Assembly: GCF_000321415.2 (NCBI RefSeq)
Contig: NC_019902.2
Coordinates: 1,612,001-1,676,000 of the forward strand
Length of the DNA: 64,000 bases
Source of the DNA: Thioalkalivibrio nitratireducens DSM 14787
Lineage (GTDB): Bacteria; Pseudomonadota; Gammaproteobacteria; Ectothiorhodospirales; Ectothiorhodospiraceae
Direction: 5' to 3'
Made by a program: the position numbers and the translations under genes. The notes beneath the pieces were generated by a model. It searched no databases. It was not told the origin of the DNA and saw only the letters and a program-made list of their open reading frames with translations. This document shows positions 8,463-56,792 of this stretch, in pieces (within the stretch, counting starts at the first letter, position 1; the number at the start of each line of letters is the position of its first letter).

Positions 8463-9003
8463 CGCGGAGCTCCGGGCTGTCGTCGAGTGTGGAGGGGAGC
8501 GTGGGTGGCTCGGCAGCGTTTGAACACCGACCCGGCGCAACGGCGCCTAGGGAAGCGCTGACAAATTCGTCATCGCGAGGAGCGAAGCCTTTAGCCGTGA
8601 GCGCAGCGTGGCGGGACGTGGCGATCCATAAGGCAATGATTTCGTTAGCGCCGCTTGAATTATTCGCTGCGCTCACCCTGCGGGCCAGCCTTCGGCTGTG
8701 CAATGCGCTACGCGCATTAGTGCCGCGCTTCGCTCGCAATGACAGGGCCCCTTGTTCAGCGTTTCCCTAGTGGGCCATGCGGGAAGATCACCACCAGATC
8801 GCTTCGCCAGACACAACGGCGCTGCGTCGGGCAAGCTAGAAATAGGTCGGCTGTTCCCGCACTTGCCCGTGTTGCTGCGGCGCACCCGGCTGGGCCCCAT
8901 AGGCACCGAACTTCCCTTATATCGCGTTAGCTTGCCATGTTTCCGGCGCCCCGGGCAGTACAGACCGGTGATGCAATGCTGAATCCATCGGACCGTGTGC
9001 GGG
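8463..9003. other. Intergenic region containing a MITE-like repeat
   Basis: About 540 bp between the ATPase start and the pbpC stop. It is largely occupied by the repeat at 8550-8767; the remainder (8770-9003) shows no gene or hairpin that I can support. Confidence 0.5.
8550..8767. repeat. MITE-like element with terminal inverted repeats and TA duplication
   Basis: A 218-bp non-coding unit. The left end GGGAAGCGCTGA (8550-8561) and right end TCAGCGTTTCCC (8756-8767) are inverted repeats with one mismatch, flanked on both sides by TA (8548-8549 and 8768-8769). The interior begins and ends with GTCATCGCGAGGAGCGAAG- and CGCTCGCAATGAC-type palindromic arms. A TA target with GGG.. ends resembles IS5/IS427-group elements, so this may be a non-autonomous derivative. 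Related interiors occur inverted at 36687-36835, truncated at 39411-39436 and partially at 56612-56646. Confidence 0.7.
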
Positions 9004-36686: not shown

Positions 36687-36835
36687 GTCATTGCGAGCGT
36701 AGCGCGGCACTAATGCGCGCAGCGCATTGAACAGCCGAAGGCTGGCCCGCAGGGTGAGCGCAGCGAATAATCCAGGCGGCGCGGGGAGGACTAATGCCGT
36801 TTGGATCGCCACGTTGCTTCGCGCCTCGCGATGAC
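36687..36835 (-). repeat. Dispersed repeat, inverted copy of the MITE interior
   Basis: From GTCATTGCGAGCG to CGCGATGAC this 149-bp stretch aligns by eye, in reverse orientation, with the interior of the MITE-like repeat (8569-8743), including GCACTAATGCGCG, ACAGCCGAAGGCTGG and GGATCGCCACG. The GGGAAGCGCTGA ends are absent, so it is a decayed or end-less copy. Confidence 0.75.
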
Positions 36836-39410: not shown

Positions 39411-39436
39411 TCATTGCGAGCGTAACGCGGCACTAA
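39411..39436 (-). repeat. Truncated copy of the dispersed repeat
   Basis: TCATTGCGAGCGTAACGCGG followed by CACTAA matches the start of the copy at 36687 with one change, then the similarity stops abruptly. Confidence 0.6.
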
Positions 39437-39564
39437 CTTTCATGGCCGGCGGCTACCCTGCAACATGAAAAGGCGAGCCACGGAAAGCACGGACGGACAC
39501 GGAAAAAAGGGTTTGATCCGTTTCATATTCCGTGATTTCCGTGTTCTTCCGTGGCTGGATTTTT

Positions 39565-39666
39565 ACGCTCACTGTCATGCCGTCGGCCTCGAGGCACCCC
39601 GAAGAATGAAACTACGATTATAAATCAGAGACATACAATTCTCGGGCGGCGTATTTTCACGCTAAC
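39565..39666. repeat. Direct repeat copy 1 flanking the IS110 element
   Basis: About 102 bp from ACGCTCACTGTCATGCC to TTTTCACGCTAAC; nearly identical to 41258-41359, with shared core GAAACTACGATTATAAATCA and CTCGGGCGGCGTATTTTCAC. A few substitutions separate the two copies. Confidence 0.85.
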
Positions 39667-41257
<1,591 letters not shown>

Positions 41258-41359
41258 ACGCTAACTTTCATGCCCTCGGCCGCGAGGCACCCCGAAGGAT
41301 GAAACTACGATTATAAATCAGAGACATACGATTCTCGGGCGGCGTATTTTCACGCCAAC
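41258..41359. repeat. Direct repeat copy 2 flanking the IS110 element
   Basis: About 102 bp from ACGCTAACTTTCATGCC to TTTTCACGCCAAC; partner of 39565-39666, about 1.69 kb downstream in the same orientation. Confidence 0.85.
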
Positions 41360-41682
41360 ATCCCTGGTTCCAGGCCATCACTCGCAACCATGAAAGATGC
41401 GGAGAGGTAGAAGCGGCCAAGAGCCGTCGTCCGCCATCCGGCGCCGGGATTGCAGACCGGACCATCGGGGAGCCGTTGCGAATACGCTGCCCCGGGCGAC
41501 GCACTGCGGGTGACCCCCCCGCCGACCGACCGGCCACTCGCAGCCCTGCCGCCATCGCCCACTTGACCTGAGTCAATGCCTGCCCTCGAAGCCGCCTGCT
41601 AGGTTCGCGCCCAGTCTCCATGCACACGCAGCAGGTGCAGGAGTTTCTGGCCGAGGCCGCCAACCACACGAGGGAACAAGCG
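41360..41682. other. Intergenic region upstream of norC
   Basis: About 320 bp between the repeat and norC. The only supported element is the FNR-type box at 41563-41576. An in-frame ATG at 41620 is a less likely alternative norC start. Confidence 0.5.
41563..41576. promoter_or_regulatory. FNR/DNR-type box upstream of norC
   Basis: TTGAC-CTGA-GTCAA, a perfect 5-4-5 dyad, about 106 bp before the norC start. Same class as the nirS box. Confidence 0.78.
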
Positions 41683-46975: not shown

Positions 46976-47341
46976 AGAACGATCTCTCCAATCCTGGGCC
47001 GCGGGTGCACTTTAGCCACGTCGGCTGTTGGACTGTGTCGGTTGGCGAAGCCCACCAGCCCGCGCGCCGTTCACCCCTTGGACTCGTCGCCGCACGGCAT
47101 TGCCGTGCGGCGCGATGCCGGCTACCTTGGTACCCGGCACTCGCCCCGGATGCGTCCGGCATCGTTTCCAGGGAATCCCGACTTGACACCTCCACTCCAT
47201 CGACAACCGAGCGGTCATGAGGACTCCACGGTGCGGGATCCAAGCGCCCACGGCGAGGGTGCAGTAACCCTTCGTGCCGAAACGCCAGATCGGTCAGGGG
47301 TCGGAACCCCGCACCCACCTGCGCAGCACTTCGAACACGAG
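46976..47341. other. Region upstream of menF
   Basis: About 365 bp. The menF frame stays open through most of it, but the translation (SPRAVHPLDSSPHGIAVRRD and onward) is low-complexity and unlike MenF, so I treat it as leader. TTGACA at 47182 could be a -35 box, but no matching -10 is evident. Confidence 0.35.
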
Positions 47342-48670
47342 ATGGCGGTGGCGCGGCTGCTGCGGCGCATTACTCACTGGCCGTTTCGCAAGGGGCAGCT
47401 ACTCCACCTGAGCGAGCGCCTGCCGGCTCTGGATCTGCTGGCCTGGCTGCAGGCGAATCCGCAGAACGCACGGTCGTTCTGGCAGAACCGGGAGCGAACG
47501 ATCTCGGTGGCCGGGCTAGGTGCGGCAGTCGAGCTCACCGCGCAATCGGAGCAGGAGGTCGGCGACCTGCTCGAACGCAGCTATTCGATCCTCGGGGATC
47601 GGGACACGGTATTCCTCGGCGGACTCTCATTCGATGGCCGCAGCGGCCGCGGCGAGTGGTCGGCCTTTCCCGGCGCGCGCCTCGTGCTGCCCGCGATCGC
47701 GTGCTGCCAGCGCAACGGCGAATACCGTCTGTCCGTGCACCTGCTGGCGGATTCCCGCCGGGAGTTCATTCGCAGAAAGACGCAACTGATCACGGCGCTG
47801 TGCCGGCTGCGTTTTCGCGGTCGTGCGCGGCCGGATGCGCCTCGGCCGCGCGTGTCATCGCGCATCGACGACGTCGATTTCGCCGGCTGCCGCCGCCGTA
47901 TCCAGGCGGTGCTGCGCGAGATCGCCGCCGGGGAGCTGCACAAGGCGGTACTGGCACGGCGCGTCGAGCTCGCCCTGACCAGCCCGGTCGCCGTCTTCGA
48001 GGTGCTCGCGCGCTGGCGCGAGGTCAATCCGGGCAGCTTCTGTTTCGCAATGGAGCGCGGACAGGACCTGTTCATGGGCTGTTCGCCCGAGCGCCTCTAC
48101 CGGCGGCACCGCCGGGAGTTCCAGACCGAATCGCTCGCCGGCACGGTGCGTCTCGGACGGACCCGGGACGAGGATGTGGCGCTGATGGCCCGCCTGCACC
48201 GCGATCCGAAGCTGGTCCAGGAACACGATCTCGTGACCCGGTTCGTGCGCCGCCAGATCGAACCCTGGGTGACCGATGCCCAGAGCCCGGAACAGGCAGG
48301 AGTGTTCAAGCTCGACCGCATTCAGCACCGCTACCTGCCGATCCGTGCAACCCTGAAGCCCGGTGTTCTCGACCATCCCCTGCTGGACACATTGCACCCG
48401 ACCCCGGCCGTCTGCGGCTTTCCGCGCGGGGCGGCGCAGGCCCTGATCGAACGCGAGGAGACCGCTCAGCGAGGCTGGTACAGCGGTGCCGTGGGTATCG
48501 TCTCGCCGCAGGAATCCGAGTTTGCCGTCGCGATCCGCTCGGTACTGGTGAACCGCGAGCGTATCCTGTGCTATTCCGGCGTGGGCATCGTGGCGGGCTC
48601 CGATCCGGAAGAGGAGTGGACCGAACTGGAGGCGAAAATCGAGTCGTTTCTCTCCGTACTGGAATGCTGA
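47342..48670 (+). CDS. menF: Isochorismate synthase MenF
   Basis: 442 aa chorismate-binding enzyme. The C-terminal catalytic domain shows AGELHKAVLARRVEL, FCFAMERGQDLFMGCSPERL, QTESLAGTVRLGRTRDED, LHPTPAVCGFPRGAA and YSGAVGIVSPQESEFAVAIR, all typical of isochorismate synthases. It converts chorismate to isochorismate, the first committed step of menaquinone synthesis. ATG 47342 (MAVARLLRRITHWPF) chosen by family length; the RBS is weak and GTG codons further up are possible. Overlaps menD by 7 bp. Confidence 0.9.
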   Translation: MAVARLLRRITHWPFRKGQLLHLSERLPALDLLAWLQANPQNARSFWQNRERTISVAGLGAAVELTAQSEQEVGDLLERSYSILGDRDTVFLGGLSFDGRSGRGEWSAFPGARLVLPAIACCQRNGEYRLSVHLLADSRREFIRRKTQLITALCRLRFRGRARPDAPRPRVSSRIDDVDFAGCRRRIQAVLREIAAGELHKAVLARRVELALTSPVAVFEVLARWREVNPGSFCFAMERGQDLFMGCSPERLYRRHRREFQTESLAGTVRLGRTRDEDVALMARLHRDPKLVQEHDLVTRFVRRQIEPWVTDAQSPEQAGVFKLDRIQHRYLPIRATLKPGVLDHPLLDTLHPTPAVCGFPRGAAQALIEREETAQRGWYSGAVGIVSPQESEFAVAIRSVLVNRERILCYSGVGIVAGSDPEEEWTELEAKIESFLSVLEC

Positions 48671-50484
48671 GGCCGCGACGATTCAGCCACCTGAACGAGG
48701 CATGGGCATTCGTTCTGGTCGATCGGCTGCACCGGGGTCACGGAATCCGCGACTTCTGCATTGCCCCCGGCAGCCGCAGCGCGCCGCTGGTGCTGGCGCT
48801 GGCCCGCCATGTCCAGCATCACGCCGAGTTGCGGCTTCACACCCATTTCGACGAACGCGGTCTCGCGTTCTACGCACTTGGGCTGACCAAATCCGGGCAT
48901 CGGCCTGTCACGGTGATCACGACCTCCGGCACCGCGGTCGCCAACCTGCACCCGGCGATCATCGAGGCCTTCGAGACGCATTGCCCGCTGATCGCGCTGA
49001 CCGCGGATCGCCCCGAGGAACTGCAGGACTGCGGCGCGAACCAGGCGATCCGGCAACGCGGCCTGTTCGGAGGCAACCTGCGCGGTGAGCTGCGCCTTCC
49101 TGCGCCCGGCCCCGGCTGGTCAGCCGCCCGCCTGCACTGGGAACTCGACGCGGCTCTCGCCGGATTGCACGGATCCGACGCCGGCCCGGTCCACATCAAC
49201 GCCCCGTTCCGCGAGCCCCTGTATGGAGCTGCGGAGGTCGAGGGTCGCAACCACCCACCGGACGCCGGAACCCGTAGGGTGGAAGAGCGAAGCCTGATCC
49301 GCCATACCGACCACACACCCGCCGGATCGGCGCAGAACGCAAACCGATTCGAGGCCGGCGCTAGCCAGGTCCTGCACGCGTGGGTCTCGGATCTGGACGA
49401 TAAGCCGCAACCCGAGCCTTCGCGGCCCCCGACCGCTGCACTGCCGACGTTGCAGGGGCCGCTCCTGCTGGTGGCCGGGCACCTGGAGGCGGAAGAGGCG
49501 CAGGCGGTGCTGGACCTTGCGCAGCGTTACCAGATGCCCGTATTTGCGGACTTCGGCAGCCAGCTCCGCCTGGTCGAGCACCCGTGCATGCCGGGTGCCG
49601 CCGACCTGCTGCTCGCCAGCCCCCGAGGGCAGCAGGCGCTCGGCTCGGTCCGCCAGATCCTCCAGTTTGGCGGGCGCCTCACCGGTAAACGCCTGAACCA
49701 GTGGCTGGCGGAATTCCCCGGTGAACGCTGGCTGGTCAGTCGCCACTCCGCCAGGCTCGATCCGGCGCACCGGGCCGTTGCGGTCCAGTGCGACATCCCG
49801 GAGCTTTGCCGGCACTTGGAGCTCCCGTCGCCGGCCGATCTCGGCTTGGCGGATGTCGAGCGGGAACTGCATACCCTGGTCGACGACGCCCTGGCCGAGG
49901 AGTTCTCGGAACTGGCGGCCGCACGGATCGTCAGCGAGGAGATCCCGCCAGACATGGCATTGATGGCGGGCAACAGCCTGAGTATTCGGCTGCTGGACTT
50001 GTTCGCCCGCCCCGGTCACGGAAACCCCTGCGTGACCCACCGGGGCGCAAGCGGAATCGACGGTCTGGTTGCCAGCGCCTGCGGTTTCGCACGCCGGCAC
50101 CCGACGGGCGTGACGCTACTGCTCGGCGATCTATCGCTGCTGCACGACCTGAACAGCCTCGCATTGGCTGCCCGCAGCTCCGTGCCGCTGGTGATCGTGC
50201 TGCTGAACAACGACGGCGGCGGGATCTTCCACCTGCTGCCCGCACGCGGGCAGAGTACATACTTCGAACCGCTGTTCCAGTTGCCGCATGGATTGGATTT
50301 CCGGCAGGCGGCCGGGCAGTTCGGACTGCGGTATGCGGCGCCGGGATCGGCGCCGGATTTCCGCGCTGTCTACCGGGACGCCTGCGCGCGCGACGGCTGC
50401 ACACTGATCGAGCTGCGGTTTCCGGCCGGCCGGAGTGCCGAACTGCTGCAGGGCCTGTACCAGCGCCTCGGCGACATTCAATGA
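48664..50484 (+). CDS. menD: MenD, SEPHCHC synthase, with an in-frame repeat-encoded insert
   Basis: 606 aa ThDP enzyme joining isochorismate and 2-oxoglutarate. Markers: FCIAPGSRSAPLVLAL, HFDERGLAFYALGLTK and TSGTAVANLHPAIIEA at the N-terminus; NSLSIRLLDLFA, THRGASGIDGL and GDLSLLHDLNSLAL at the C-terminal ThDP site. Residues about 200-240 (ending near RFEAGASQV) do not look like MenD. They contain TRRVEERSLIRHTD, encoded by a GTAGGG-type palindromic repeat at 49274-49303. The insert lies in the linker after the first domain, so activity may be kept. Overlaps menF and menH. Confidence 0.92.
   Translation: MLRPRRFSHLNEAWAFVLVDRLHRGHGIRDFCIAPGSRSAPLVLALARHVQHHAELRLHTHFDERGLAFYALGLTKSGHRPVTVITTSGTAVANLHPAIIEAFETHCPLIALTADRPEELQDCGANQAIRQRGLFGGNLRGELRLPAPGPGWSAARLHWELDAALAGLHGSDAGPVHINAPFREPLYGAAEVEGRNHPPDAGTRRVEERSLIRHTDHTPAGSAQNANRFEAGASQVLHAWVSDLDDKPQPEPSRPPTAALPTLQGPLLLVAGHLEAEEAQAVLDLAQRYQMPVFADFGSQLRLVEHPCMPGAADLLLASPRGQQALGSVRQILQFGGRLTGKRLNQWLAEFPGERWLVSRHSARLDPAHRAVAVQCDIPELCRHLELPSPADLGLADVERELHTLVDDALAEEFSELAAARIVSEEIPPDMALMAGNSLSIRLLDLFARPGHGNPCVTHRGASGIDGLVASACGFARRHPTGVTLLLGDLSLLHDLNSLALAARSSVPLVIVLLNNDGGGIFHLLPARGQSTYFEPLFQLPHGLDFRQAAGQFGLRYAAPGSAPDFRAVYRDACARDGCTLIELRFPAGRSAELLQGLYQRLGDIQ
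49274..49303 (+). repeat. GTAGGG-type palindromic repeat inside menD
   Basis: A 30-bp core starting GTAGGGTGGAAGAGCGAAGC and ending GATCCGCC; its copy in menC (52409-52438) differs at a few positions. Same frame in both genes (TRR.E.RS.IR). A third relative is at 58814-58843. Confidence 0.85.
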
Positions 50485-51269
50485 TGGGGGCTCCGGGGGC
50501 CAAGGACCGCCCGACGGTCCTGCTGCTGCACGGCTTCATGGGCACTGGATTGGACTGGATCGAGACGGCCCGGAACCTCGCGCCGGCGTTCCGCTGCCTG
50601 TTGCCGGATCTGCCCGGGCACGACGGCCGCCCGCTGGACCTGGGGGGCATGGAAGCTTCTTTCGAAGCCTACACGGACTGGCTTTGGCATACGCTCGAAC
50701 CCGCGCTGCCGCGCCACTTCGCACTGGCCGGGTACTCGCTGGGCGGGAGGCTCGCGCTGGATCTCGCCTGCCGCTTTCCGGAGCGGGTCAGCGCCCTGAT
50801 CCTGGAAAGCGCCCATCCGGGCCTGTCCGAGCCGCGGGAGCGTCGCGAGCGCGCACGGCACGATGAGGACTGGGCGCGCCGCTTCGAAAATGGGCCCTGG
50901 CCCGCAGTGCTTGCGCACTGGTACCGGCAGCCGGTCTTCGCATCCCTGACCGACGCACAGCGCGACTCGTTCATCGCCCGGCGTGCCCGGCATTCCCCAC
51001 AGACGCTGGCCCGCGTGCTGCGCGCGACGAACCTCGCCCGGCAGCCGGATCGCTGGCACGACCTGCCGCGGCTGCCGATGCCGATCGCCTTCATCGCCGG
51101 TGCGGAGGACCCGAAGTTCTGCACGGTCGGTGAGCGGATGGCCCGGATGCTGCCCGAGCTGACCCTTGTCAAACTCGACGGCGTGGGGCATAACTGCCAC
51201 GCTACGGCCCCGGCACAGGTCGCGGCCGTCATTCACCGTCTGTGCACGATCGAGCGCACCCCTTCATGA
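50481..51269 (+). CDS. menH: MenH, SHCHC synthase (alpha/beta hydrolase)
   Basis: 262 aa alpha/beta hydrolase. Oxyanion region [13 protein letters not shown], nucleophile Ser in [15 protein letters not shown], acid Asp in [11 protein letters not shown], His in [13 protein letters not shown]. Removes pyruvate from SEPHCHC. The position between menD and menB, with ATGA overlaps on both sides, supports the assignment. ATG 50481 or 50484. Confidence 0.9.
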
Positions 51270-52123
51270 GCACCGCAGCCTCCCATCTCTGTTCGATTCT
51301 TCCGGCGCTGGACTGGCAGGACCATTCCGCGTCCTTCCGGGACATCCGCTACCACAAGGCGGAAGGGATCGCGAAGATCACGATCCACCGCCCGGAAATC
51401 CGCAACGCGTTCCGCCCGCTGACGGTGAAGGAGATGCGGCAGGCCCTGGCCGATGCCCGCTTCGACGAAGGCATCGGCGTGATCGTGCTGACCGGGCAGG
51501 GCGATCTCGCGTTCTGCTCCGGCGGCGACCAGCGGGTGCGCGGCGATTCCGGCTACCGCGACGAGAACGGCATGCACCACCTGAACGTGCTCGACCTGCA
51601 GCGCGAGATCCGCTCCTGCCCCAAGCCGGTGATCGCGATGGTCGCCGGCTACGCGATCGGCGGCGGCCATGTGCTGCACGTCGTCTGCGACCTGACCATC
51701 GCCGCCGACAACGCGCGCTTCGGCCAGACCGGGCCCAAGGTCGGTTCCTTCGACGGCGGATTCGGAGCCAGTTACCTCGCCAACGTGGTCGGCCAGAAAA
51801 AAGCCCGGGAGATCTGGTTCCTGTGCCGGCAGTATGATGCCCGGGAGGCGCTGGCCATGGGCCTCGTGAACACGGTCGTTCCGCTCGCGGAGCTGGAACG
51901 CGAGACCGTGGCCTGGTGTCGGCAGATCCTCGAGCACTCGCCCACCGCGCTACGGATGCTGAAATCCGCGTTCAACGCCGGCACCGACGGCCAGGCCGGG
52001 ATCCAGGAACTGGCCGGCAACGCAACGATGCTGTTCTACATGACCGAGGAAGGCCAGGAAGGGCGCAACGCCTACCTGGAAAAGCGCCTCCCGGACTTCG
52101 GCAAGTTCAAGCGCCAGCCGTGA
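51266..52123 (+). CDS. menB: MenB, 1,4-dihydroxy-2-naphthoyl-CoA synthase
   Basis: 285 aa crotonase fold. [36 protein letters not shown] and [18 protein letters not shown] carry the oxyanion-hole glycines and the conserved Asp of MenB. It cyclises OSB-CoA. The C-terminal [19 protein letters not shown] is typical. ATGA overlap with menH, GTGA with menC. Confidence 0.95.
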
Positions 52124-53352
52124 GCGAGGCGCTGCTCGGCGCAGTCACGGGCGTCGACCTGTGGCATTACCGGCTGCCGCTGAGACACCCCCTGCACCTC
52201 GGCGGCCTTGTCTTCGATCACCGCTCCGGCCTCCTGCTCGAATGGCGCACGTCCCCGGACCGCGTGGTCTGGTCCGAGATCGCCCCCCTCCCCGGCTTCA
52301 GCTGCGAATCCCTGGACACCTGCGTTACCGAATGCCGCCGGTTCTTCGCGGGCCACCACGTCCACAATGCCGCCGCCACATTCAACGCGCCGCCCAATCC
52401 CGAAACCCGTAGGGCGGAAAAGCGAAGCGTCATCCGCCGTTCCACCGGCGTACGCGCAGATTCGGCGCCAGATGCCCACGTAGGCCAGCGCAGGCAGCAA
52501 ATCCCCGTCCGGCAGGGTCCGGAAGCGGCGGGACCCACCCACGATCCCGAAGATGCGACATCGCAGGCAGCCACAGCCACCTTGGTCCTGGAAGCCCTCG
52601 GGCAGAGCATTCCCCAAGACCTCAGCCCCTCCGTTCGTTTCGGACTCGAATGCGGCCTGCTGCAACTGACCGTGCCACTGCCCGCCGCGCCACGGCCCAC
52701 CCTCTGCCTGCTGGTCACCGCGGACGGGCCGATCGACCCTGCGGCCCTTTCGGACAGCACCTGCGTGAAGCTGAAGGTAGGCCAACGGGATCCCGCCGAG
52801 GAGCGACAGCGAATGCGGTGGATCCTTGATGCAGTACCCGCCACCGCCCGGCTGCGCCTCGACGCCAACCGCGCCTGGTCGCTGGAGCAGGCCGCCGCAT
52901 TCTGCGCCGACCTCGACCCGCAACGGGTCGAGTACATTGAAGAACCGCTGCGTCCGGGCCTGTCCTACAGCGGGTGGCACGAGCACATCCCGATCCCCTT
53001 CGCCTGGGATGAAACCCTGCGCGAGCGGCCGGAACCCCGCCTGGACATCCCAGGACTGCGCGCCGTGGTCCTGAAACCGATGCTGACCGGGCTGTCCCGG
53101 ACCCAGACGCTGGTAGAACAGGCGCAGGTCGTCGGGATCCAGCCGGTGCTCAGCGGTGCCTACGAATCCAACCTCAGTCTCGATCTCTACGCCCAACTCG
53201 CCGCACTGTGGTCCCTGGAGGGGCCGCACGGGCTGGACACCCTTCGCCCGTTCTCCATGGCGCTACTGCAGCCACCGCGGTTCCTGCATCGGAACAGACC
53301 GCTTCCGTTGCTCGGCCGCGAGCAGCTCGAACACCTGGGGCGGCTGCTGTGA
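52120..53352 (+). CDS. menC: MenC, o-succinylbenzoate synthase, with an in-frame repeat-encoded insert
   Basis: 410 aa, longer than usual (about 320-370). Enolase superfamily residues are present: KLKVG (KxK), [33 protein letters not shown]. Dehydrates SHCHC to OSB. Residues about 90-155 ([19 protein letters not shown] onward to GPTHDPED) look foreign. They include [14 protein letters not shown] from a palindromic repeat at 52409-52438, in the same frame as the menD copy. The insert lies in the N-terminal capping domain. GTG start overlapping menB; overlaps menE. Confidence 0.9.
52409..52438 (+). repeat. GTAGGG-type palindromic repeat inside menC
   Basis: A 30-bp core starting GTAGGGCGGAAAAGCGAAGC and ending CATCCGCC. 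Matches 49274-49303 in menD; the flanks (CCGAAACCC before, TTCGGCGC after) also look related. Confidence 0.85.
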
Positions 53353-54710
53353 CCTTCGCGACCGATCCCTGCCTGGTCCGTGCCGGCGCCCGAGCCTTCG
53401 GGGACGCACCGGCTTTGCTCGGACCCGACGTCCGGCTCTCGTTCCGCGAACTCGACCAGCTCGTCGATGCCCGCGCCCGGAGCCTGGCCGCGCAGGGCGA
53501 TTCCGGGAACTGGGTGATTCATCGGGCAACGCCGAACGCATCGAGTCTGATCGAGTTCCTCGCGCTGCTGCGGGCCGAATCCAGCGTGCTGCCGGTCAAC
53601 CCGGCCCTCCCGGCGGCGGCGCTGTCTCGGCTGATCGGGCAACAGGGGATCGTGCGCTTCGCGGACTCACGCACCGACCCGGCACTGGGGCTGCACAGCG
53701 AATCTCCCGGAGCCGGCGGAAACGGCCCGCAAGGACTGGAATGGCCGGCACCTGCGCCGCTGACTGGCATGCTGACCTCCGGCTCCACCGGCGAGCCCAA
53801 GGTGGCCGTGCACAGCGAGCGCAACCATGTCCTCAGCGCCGAGGGCTTCGCAGCCGCGATCCCCATCGGCCCCGGAGACCGTTACCTGCTGGCGCTGCCG
53901 TGGTTCCACGTCGGCGGGCTCGCGATCCTGTTTCGCTGCGTTCTGCACGGTGCGGCCATCGTGCTCGGAGGGCGTGCGGAGGACGCGCACTTTCTGCGCA
54001 CCATGGGTGTCACCCATGCCTCCATGGTCGAGACGCAGCTTCGCCGTCTGCTCGCCGCGCCCGACCCACTGCCGCCCCTGCGCTGCGTGCTGCTGGGCGG
54101 TGGTCCGGTGCGCGCCTCGGTACGCGGCGCGGCGCTGGCACGCGGCCTGCCGGTCTGGCAGAGCTACGGCCTCACCGAGACGGCTTCGCTGGTCATCGCC
54201 GAGGATCCGGACGGACGGGTGCATCTCCTGCCACACCGCGAATGCCGGATCGCCGACGATGGCGAGATCCTCGTGCGGGGCGGCACGCTGTTCCTCGGTT
54301 ACCTGGACCGCGGCACGCCGGTGCCGGCTAACGACGCCGGCGGCTGGTTCCACACCCGCGACCTCGGCGAATGGGACACAGCCGGCTTCCGGGTGACCGG
54401 GCGGCTCGACAACCGTTTCATCAGCGGCGGCGAGAACGTGCAGCCCGAGGCGATCGAAGCGGTGTTGCGCGAGCATCCGGTGATCGCCGAGGCCGTCGTC
54501 GTGCCACGGCCCGACGACGAATTCGGACAACGCCCGGTCGCGTTCCTGGACTGCATCGGAGCAGTCCGTGAGGATGCCCTGCGCGACTGGCTGCGGCCGC
54601 GGCTGAACCCCTGGCTGCTGCCTGTGGCGTTCCATCCCCTGCCCCGCAATGACGGCATGAAGTTCCGCCGCGCGGACCTGCTCCGGCTCGCGGCGCAACC
54701 CGTACCCTGA
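53349..54710 (+). CDS. menE: MenE, o-succinylbenzoate-CoA ligase
   Basis: 453 aa adenylate-forming enzyme. P-loop-like LTSGSTGEPKVAVHS, YGLTETASLVI, WFHTRDLGEWD, GRLDNRFISGGENVQPEAIE and C-terminal Lys in PRNDGMKFRRADL. Activates OSB to OSB-CoA for MenB. GTG start overlapping the menC stop. Confidence 0.93.
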   Translation: MTFATDPCLVRAGARAFGDAPALLGPDVRLSFRELDQLVDARARSLAAQGDSGNWVIHRATPNASSLIEFLALLRAESSVLPVNPALPAAALSRLIGQQGIVRFADSRTDPALGLHSESPGAGGNGPQGLEWPAPAPLTGMLTSGSTGEPKVAVHSERNHVLSAEGFAAAIPIGPGDRYLLALPWFHVGGLAILFRCVLHGAAIVLGGRAEDAHFLRTMGVTHASMVETQLRRLLAAPDPLPPLRCVLLGGGPVRASVRGAALARGLPVWQSYGLTETASLVIAEDPDGRVHLLPHRECRIADDGEILVRGGTLFLGYLDRGTPVPANDAGGWFHTRDLGEWDTAGFRVTGRLDNRFISGGENVQPEAIEAVLREHPVIAEAVVVPRPDDEFGQRPVAFLDCIGAVREDALRDWLRPRLNPWLLPVAFHPLPRNDGMKFRRADLLRLAAQPVP

Positions 54711-54721
54711 AGGAGACCCCC

Positions 54722-55144
54722 ATGCCGATCTGGAAACGCCCCGTGGACCTGGACGCGGTCAACCAGGCCAACCGCAACACCCTGATGGACGCGCTGGGCA
54801 TCCGCGTGACCGCAGTCGACGACGACGCGCTGTACGGCACGCTCCCCGTCGACGAGCGCACCCGCCAGCCCTTCGGCTTTCTGCACGGCGGCGCGTCGGT
54901 AGCGCTGGCGGAGACCCTCGGCAGCATCGCCGCCAACCTCGCCGCCGACCCCGGCTGCGTCTGCATGGGCGTGGAGGTCAACGCGAACCACCTGAAGGCC
55001 GTGCGCTCAGGCGTGGTCACCGGCTGTGCGCGCCCCCAGCAGATCGGCCGCAGCATCCAGGTCTGGGACGTCCGTCTCGAGAATGAGCGACAGGAACGGG
55101 TCTGCGTAGCCCGCCTGACCATTGCGGTGCGTGAACCACGCTGA
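54722..55144 (+). CDS. menI: DHNA-CoA thioesterase (MenI/YdiI-like hotdog protein)
   Basis: 140 aa single hotdog domain: TRQPFGFLHGGASVALAETLGSIAANLA (with the HGG motif and the following Glu of the EntH/PaaI/YdiI group), then GVEVNANHLKAVRSGVV. The position after menE, with RBS AAGGAGACCCCC, supports cleavage of DHNA-CoA as its role. The later genes menA and ubiE are not in the window. Confidence 0.88.
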   Translation: MPIWKRPVDLDAVNQANRNTLMDALGIRVTAVDDDALYGTLPVDERTRQPFGFLHGGASVALAETLGSIAANLAADPGCVCMGVEVNANHLKAVRSGVVTGCARPQQIGRSIQVWDVRLENERQERVCVARLTIAVREPR

Positions 55145-55219
55145 GCCCGCCTTGGGGGCACCGTCATTGATCGGCTCCGGCCAGTTCCTGGACGATTCCT
55201 TCCGGGCCTGGTGAGCGGA

Positions 55220-56539: not shown

Positions 56540-56611
56540 TCCTCCCACGGCCCCCTGTCTGCGCACATCGGACACAGCGGGGGCTCGCAGTGACGGCCAT
56601 ACAGTCCCACC

Positions 56612-56646
56612 GTCATCGCGAGGGGCGAAGCCCCGTGGCGATCCAA
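56612..56646 (+). repeat. Fragment of the dispersed repeat
   Basis: GTCATCGCGAGGGGCGAAGC followed by CCCGTGGCGATCCA resembles the left interior arm of the MITE-like repeat (GTCATCGCGAGGAGCGAAG...CGTGGCGATCCA). Located at the truncated end of the patatin-like gene. Confidence 0.6.
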
Positions 56647-56792
56647 TCGCCACATGGACTGCCGCGCCCCTCGGGGGCTTCACACCGGTGGTCGGGCACC
56701 TCGAACCCGCCCCTATTCGGCACCCCCAAAGGGTCTACACTTCCGTCTCGGGTGCCGGTGCACACCACAACAGTATTCTGGGGGGAACAGAC

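Follow-up and report, generated by a model that had tools for sequence, protein, structure and literature searches.

The menC and menD genes of Thioalkalivibrio nitratireducens DSM 14787, which encode enzymes of vitamin K2 (menaquinone) synthesis, each contain an in-frame copy of a short palindrome belonging to a dispersed repeat family of this genome. By its sequence and its genomic setting, this palindrome is a GTAG-type REP, and the genome also harbours a RAYT gene bordered by REPs of the same family. Both insertions recur in one close relative (G013 hereafter). We consider it likely that they stem from ancestral insertion of the RAYT/REPIN type, and that they were kept as in-frame and harmless additions to the two proteins.

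Two in-frame palindromes in the men gene cluster

The window, i.e. the whole stretch of 64,000 nt that was analysed, contains a men cluster with the gene order menF, menD, menH, menB, menC, menE and a thioesterase gene, where menE and the thioesterase gene are called from matches that fall short of, or lie outside, the curated cut-offs for MenE and MenI. The menC gene (52120..53352, + strand) codes for an insert-bearing o-succinylbenzoate synthase of 410 aa which matches TIGR01927 menC_gam_Gplu with 177 bits (cut-off 130.55) as well as MenC_N and MR_MLE_C, scores below the cut-offs of other MenC models, and has a predicted fold in agreement with the Salmonella and E. coli OSBS crystal structures. 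The menD gene (48664..50484, + strand) codes for an SEPHCHC synthase of 606 aa bearing the second insert (TIGR00173 menD, 387 bits, cut-off 244.2), with a predicted fold that agrees with the E. coli MenD crystal structure.

In menC, the 30 nt palindrome GTAGGGCGGAAAAGCGAAGCGTCATCCGCC is found at 52409..52438 (+ strand), and a copy with four differing positions is located in menD at 49274..49303 (+ strand). The two copies are identical in strand and codon phase, the first base of the repeat being the second base of a codon in both, and both translate as RRxExRSxIRx. The menC repeat codes for an 11-residue peptide within a stretch of 14 residues, and the diverged menD repeat for RRVEERSLIRH, embedded in TRRVEERSLIRHTD. 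Coordinates and translation thus confirm what a preliminary description of this DNA had reported, namely an in-frame repeat in both genes with shared orientation and phase; the interval it assigned to menC (52395..52560) does include the repeat but is too wide, as the repeat itself spans only 30 nt.

With up to 3 mismatches allowed, the menC 30-mer has a single match in the window, menC itself, compared to none in 100 dinucleotide shuffles. The menD copy, with 4 mismatches to the menC 30-mer, was detected by a looser pattern and a genome search, and scores 20.6 bits with the REPIN model in nhmmer. On menC, the REPIN profile matches over model positions 3-65 of 119 (34.7 bits), i.e. the module and perhaps some spacer, with a 4 nt gap required for the match past the module. 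A degenerate partial copy, which covers the right half of the paired element (model positions 67-112), lies at 41409..41454 on the - strand (nhmmer, 18.5 bits), under no ORF of at least 150 aa. No Rfam match was obtained over positions 47000-55200.

A GTAG-type REP family and its RAYT

The genome from which the window was taken (G000; 4.0 Mb in a single contig) holds 75 copies of the repeat when a degenerate pattern is allowed up to 3 mismatches, while the reversed control pattern yielded none. A typical element, as measured on 45 full elements of this genome and 128 of G013, is about 113 nt long: a spacer of about 50 nt separates the left module from its inverted partner, which has CTAC at its end. 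The core of the partner module (at most 2 mismatches, within 150 nt downstream) is present for 61 of the 75 copies. The 14 copies with no partner core within that distance include those of menC and menD, which thus do not qualify as REPINs; nor was any remnant of the partner module significant above background found downstream in either gene.

The features of GTAG-type REPs, namely the tag, a palindrome, many dispersed copies, a cognate RAYT and a mostly extragenic location, are all found for this family. The GTAG start is seen in the menC copy and in the menD copy of G000, and is unpaired in the DNA fold. The palindrome is imperfect, with an outer stem of 6 bp, and falls within the expected 20-40 nt. 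The DNA hairpin is about as stable relative to shuffled sequences in the menC module (z -2.65) as in the common form (z -2.76), and no better than shuffles in the diverged menD module (z -0.95). The CGTC tag of the Rickettsia palindromic element is absent, the tag being GTAG.

The RAYT gene is located at G000:C1:2324414-2324947 (- strand), and its product is 93% identical to a protein matching NCBIfam NF047646. It is flanked by REPs on both sides, one of which (G000:C1:2324235-2324264, - strand) is identical to the menC copy at 30 of 30 positions. A RAYT with flanking REPs is also present in Thioalkalivibrio sp. LCM1.Bin42 (G036). No cognate RAYT was found in G013, with a best match of 36% identity; at up to 2 mismatches, this genome contains 192 REP copies without an evident transposase, compared to 67 copies and an open RAYT frame in the genome of the window.

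Two further observations concern the family at large. In the Rhodospirillales MAG bin-2488 (L136, L151), the same REP occurs in head-to-tail tandem arrays with a period of 63 nt; this is also the spacing of the two copies in menC of G013, with different spacers. At G000:C1:888013 (L061), the TAG of the REP apparently serves as the stop codon of an upstream open stretch of more than 750 nt whose codon signal is strong, a situation reported for GTAG REPs in the text of PMC3733652.

The insertions in related genomes

A match to menC was detected in 16 of 47 genomes of the family and in 5 of 30 genomes of the genus, that of the window included in both cases; of the other 15 family genomes with a match, 14 were compared and one with a weak match (G046) was excluded. 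The closest compared relative, G013 (79% identity for MenC, 74% for MenD), shares both insertions, in site as well as in phase. Its menC gene has a second copy 63 nt (21 codons) upstream, also in the men phase, and its menD copy is diverged and begins with GTGG. The menC and menD REP insertions are absent from the other 13 of the 14 relatives. This was established by profile search of the men loci for G034, G036 and G030, where nothing significant was found (best E 2.8), and by protein alignment only for ten more distant genomes. The simplest reading of this distribution, drawn from presence and absence, is that both genes had acquired their insertions before the window's species and G013 diverged.

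The window's species has 112 MenC residues between the anchors PLPGFS and FGLE, compared to 133 in G013, 73 in G034 and 37-39 in 12 relatives. Between fixed anchors in MenD, the corresponding values are 81, 86 and, in 13 relatives, 35-40. The resulting extra segments, whose edges are approximate, comprise 73 codons in menC relative to the 12 relatives (52369..52587, + strand; mostly of low model confidence) and about 42 codons in menD relative to the 13 relatives (49243..49368, + strand; of low model confidence). About 10 residues in each protein are due to the REP, out of the 73 extra residues of MenC and the 42 of MenD, and neither insert starts exactly at the REP. In the case of G034, MenC (371 aa) has an extended loop without the repeat, from which it follows that the MenC loop was lengthened in part before the repeat arrived, or independently of it. 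The length of MenC, which had been ascribed to the repeat, is thus a real excess of which the repeat codes for only 10 codons; the observation that would have spoken against that ascription, a MenC of equal length lacking the repeat, is half realised in G034. A search of four genomes with the post-REP part of the menC insert returned good matches only to menC itself and to menC of G013.

REP copies within genes are rare

Only 2 of the 75 copies of the window's genome, those in menC and menD, could be located in recognised intact genes, whereas random insertion would place about 64 of 75 in genes (assumed coding fraction 0.85). This suggests that most insertions into genes have been lost, in keeping with the mainly extragenic position of REPs in the literature. 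The status of the copies outside the men genes was assigned by codon usage, open frames and Pfam, a procedure by which gene-breaking copies go uncounted. In the codon-usage scan of the 75 copies, only the menD copy was clearly gene-internal. The menC copy was put in a wrong, antisense frame, and was placed by homology instead; the scan may therefore miss odd inserts, even with a sensitivity of 301 of 320 positions in eight genes of the window, a set overlapping the training ORFs. Open frames that run through a copy and extend 180 nt or more to either side of it were found for 24 of the other 73 copies (28 ORFs), and none for 49. Pfam searches with all 28 ORFs gave no family for 27; the remaining one, at copy 2312072 (- strand), had a ParE match limited to the later half and lying to one side of the copy. 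At this locus (G000:C1:2312072, L035), clustered REP elements adjoin the later half of the ParE-like toxin match, which perhaps represents a gene cut by insertion.

In G013, 167 copies (at most 3 mismatches) were scanned in 71 stretches around 147 of the 192 positions and in the men locus. Only the menD copy and the two menC copies were clearly internal by codon score, and a third internal case in this genome was rejected. One gene of about 191 residues (L172, G013:C1:215018-215815) enters a complete REP element at 215128 in the men phase and ends there. It has no Pfam family, L172 being the one G013 ORF submitted to this check, and its homologues in the window's genome, G036 and G030 lie within longer frames. 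From this arrangement, L172 would seem to be a truncated gene whose tail is coded by the element.

Internal copies in other named genomes were likewise rejected, as none of 64 menC-type copies in 49 stretches was clear: four (L130, L142 and two in L151) had the same best frame, open on both sides, with a score of about zero or below on at least one side, and L164 has long open frames with a gene start beside the REP copy. No internal copy was found among 60 distinct copies at 60 loci in six relatives (87 counted; 19 with less than 150 nt on one side). The codon table used for the other genomes was trained on this window, and is less apt for other genera.

Reading phase of the insertions

The REP module contains stops in 2 of 6 phases (TAG in the forward and TGA in the reverse direction). 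Among the 45 full elements of the window's genome, phases +0, +1, +2, -0, -1 and -2 are open in 33, 23, 2, 33, 16 and 1 cases, respectively, and among the 128 elements of G013 in 113, 95, 0, 110, 23 and 0. The men copies use phase +1. Two independent insertions would share both strand and phase with a probability of 0.25 on the basis of the full elements of the window's genome, and of 0.24 on that of the left module only; the extra menC copy of G013, being in tandem, was not counted as an independent insertion. The shared phase thus is about what chance allows, i.e. survivor bias and a one-in-four coincidence, and leaves no preference to explain. Selection for the open phase of the repeat, as put forward in the preliminary description, finds no support in these figures, and the count of phases over all genomic copies that was to reveal it comes down to the 2 copies of 75 in recognised intact genes. 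This provides no larger set for a phase bias, and a wider bias was accordingly rejected.

Sequence constraint and predicted structure

Comparison with G013 yields dN/dS values of 0.50 for the N-terminal and 0.30 for the C-terminal domain of MenC, and of 0.18 and 0.24 for two parts of MenD, as expected for proteins that are under purifying selection outside their inserts. The MenD insert past the REP is barely alignable (41% nucleotide identity, dN/dS 1.19) and looks unconstrained, and the menD module itself shows 10.5 nonsynonymous versus 1.5 synonymous changes between species over 14 codons. For the MenC insert past the module, dN/dS is 0.46, not significantly below 1 (Fisher P 0.16), and for the 11 codons directly before the module it is 4.07 in a doubtful alignment. 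The menC module is identical between species at 30 of 30 positions, compared to 84.5% for the rest of the insert (P ~0.006, post hoc, as this identity was spotted afterwards and in one of two genes).

In the AlphaFold models, pLDDT drops below 50 in MenC over residues 82-93 and 99-140 and in MenD over residues 187-237, low confidence being partly expected here as the alignments comprised 15 sequences of which only two cover the REP part. Other regions of low confidence in MenD are residues 125-129, 245-254, 519-528 and 535-542. These predictions fit inserts that form disordered loops. The earlier proposal that the insertions lie in plausible loops is upheld by the low pLDDT across the inserts and by the 13 of 14 relatives that do without them.

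Other repeats in the window

Copies of a 53-106 nt repeat at 39559-39705 and 41252-41359 flank the overlapping frames 39921-40586 and 40265-41302, which resemble a frameshift-broken transposase of the IS110 type. An inverted repeat pair of 96 nt (8648-8743 and 36687-36782) is 95% complementary over a distance of 28 kb, with related or adjoining pieces at 39411-39436 and 56607-56652, and probably represents another dispersed repeat family.

Origin of the two insertions

As a GTAG-type REP, the repeat is the unit of a REPIN which was most likely mobilised by a RAYT. We propose that REP-bearing DNA entered menC and menD in an ancestor shared by the window's species and G013. Since both insertions would have been in frame, in a stop-free phase and in loops, the enzymes would have kept working and the insertions would not have been purged. 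The partner module would no longer be recognisable in either gene, and the second menC copy would have been either gained in G013 or lost in the window's species. Several observations do not sit easily with such an ancestral, neutral insertion. Both gene-internal copies of the window's genome are found in one operon, with a chance of ~0.2% that a second random gene-internal insertion would join the one in menD in the same cluster (assuming 3.5 Mb of coding DNA); the identity of the menC module between species exceeds the neutral prediction; the missing partner remnant and the inserts not beginning exactly at the REP do not point to insertion of a full pair; and G013 has no cognate RAYT. Placement in a shared operon could reflect a local copy, ancestral relaxed selection on the pathway, or luck.

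A single insertion may have given rise to the other copy by short-range duplication or gene conversion within the operon, so that the phase came to be shared. We regard this as unlikely, even though the two gene-internal copies are only 3.1 kb apart and their flanks resemble each other more than those of random in-phase coding pairs, with 21 matches over the left 45 nt (P 0.022) and 24 over the right 45 nt (P 0.0026). Flank likeness leans slightly towards a common origin of the two copies, on P values that are post hoc and from a test that ignores the local proline- and alanine-rich composition; moreover, a few bases of the menC/menD flank recur beside other REP copies. Gene conversion between copies, also raised in the preliminary description, finds no support in the modules themselves. 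Between those of menC and menD there are 4 differences over the 30 positions here and 3 in G013 (second menC copy), so that no ongoing homogenisation is apparent, and in menD each of the two species has accumulated changes of its own.

It is tempting to speculate that the REP peptide was selected as a useful basic linker in both enzymes, e.g. for contact between Men proteins, in which case a mobile palindrome would have contributed novel protein segments to two enzymes of the same pathway. The same phase in menC, menD and both menC copies of G013, the invariant menC module and the common pathway would be in line with this. We nevertheless hold such selection to be very improbable, given that a phase coincidence of two independent insertions is expected about one time in four, that the menD module has diverged mostly by nonsynonymous changes, that the MenC insert outside the module does not depart significantly from neutrality after it and is doubtfully aligned before it, that 13 relatives manage without the REP-coded segment, and that the mRNA hairpins are unexceptional (z -1.05 and -1.79). 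The more specific idea that the REP peptides were co-opted as matching basic linkers, with the menC nucleotides kept through a role of the peptide or of the palindrome, e.g. in gathering Men enzymes, is if anything a shade less credible. Least probable of all would be that menC and menD are decaying and that the repeat marks their pseudogenisation. The insertions with their long low-confidence inserts and the scarcity of menC in the genus might suggest as much, but the frames of both genes are intact in two species, the dN/dS values of 0.18-0.30 over MenD and the C-terminal domain of MenC, and of 0.50 for its N-terminal domain, speak for functional proteins, and the adjoining menF, menH, menB and menE frames are open and match their families (menE below curated cut-offs).

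Comparison with known repeat systems

The spread of REPINs, inverted pairs of REPs, is attributed to a REP-associated tyrosine transposase, and RAYTs, REP doublets and REPINs, including those of Thioalkalivibrio, are treated in Bertels and Rainey 2011 (PMC3116915) and Nunvar et al. 2010 (PMC2817692). The present family resembles such systems in that its own RAYT is flanked on both sides by REPs of the family of the men copies. Unlike REPINs, which are extragenic pairs, the men copies each consist of a single, gene-internal module. Rickettsia palindromic elements, mentioned as background in PMC3733652, are palindromic repeats found in frame in protein genes. According to the same text they end in CGTC, and CGTC repeats apparently have no dedicated transposase, unlike the men repeats, which are tagged by GTAG and associated with a RAYT.

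The closest parallel is provided by Di Nocera et al. 2013 (PMC3733652), whose main text describes GTAG REPs located wholly within ORFs, and coding, in several species, sometimes with several REPs per gene, as in a Thioalkalivibrio uvrA with two REP dimers. It also notes that the TAG of a REP often terminates a neighbouring ORF, and considers neutral insertion into flexible linkers or loops. In-frame intragenic GTAG REPs are thus already known, also in Thioalkalivibrio. The main text of that paper, as distinct from its supplementary gene list, does not mention menC or menD, and no report of REPs in these genes was found among the listed titles and abstracts on palindromic or REP sequences of Thioalkalivibrio; relative to these sources, the two genes represent a fresh example. 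The men copies are like the published intragenic cases in being GTAG palindromes that code inside ORFs, and unlike those described there in that they occupy two genes of one operon, are common to two species, and do not have the same copy number in both. Such orthologous in-frame REP insertions, together with relatives lacking them and a change in copy number, make the neutrality of REP-coded protein segments directly testable.
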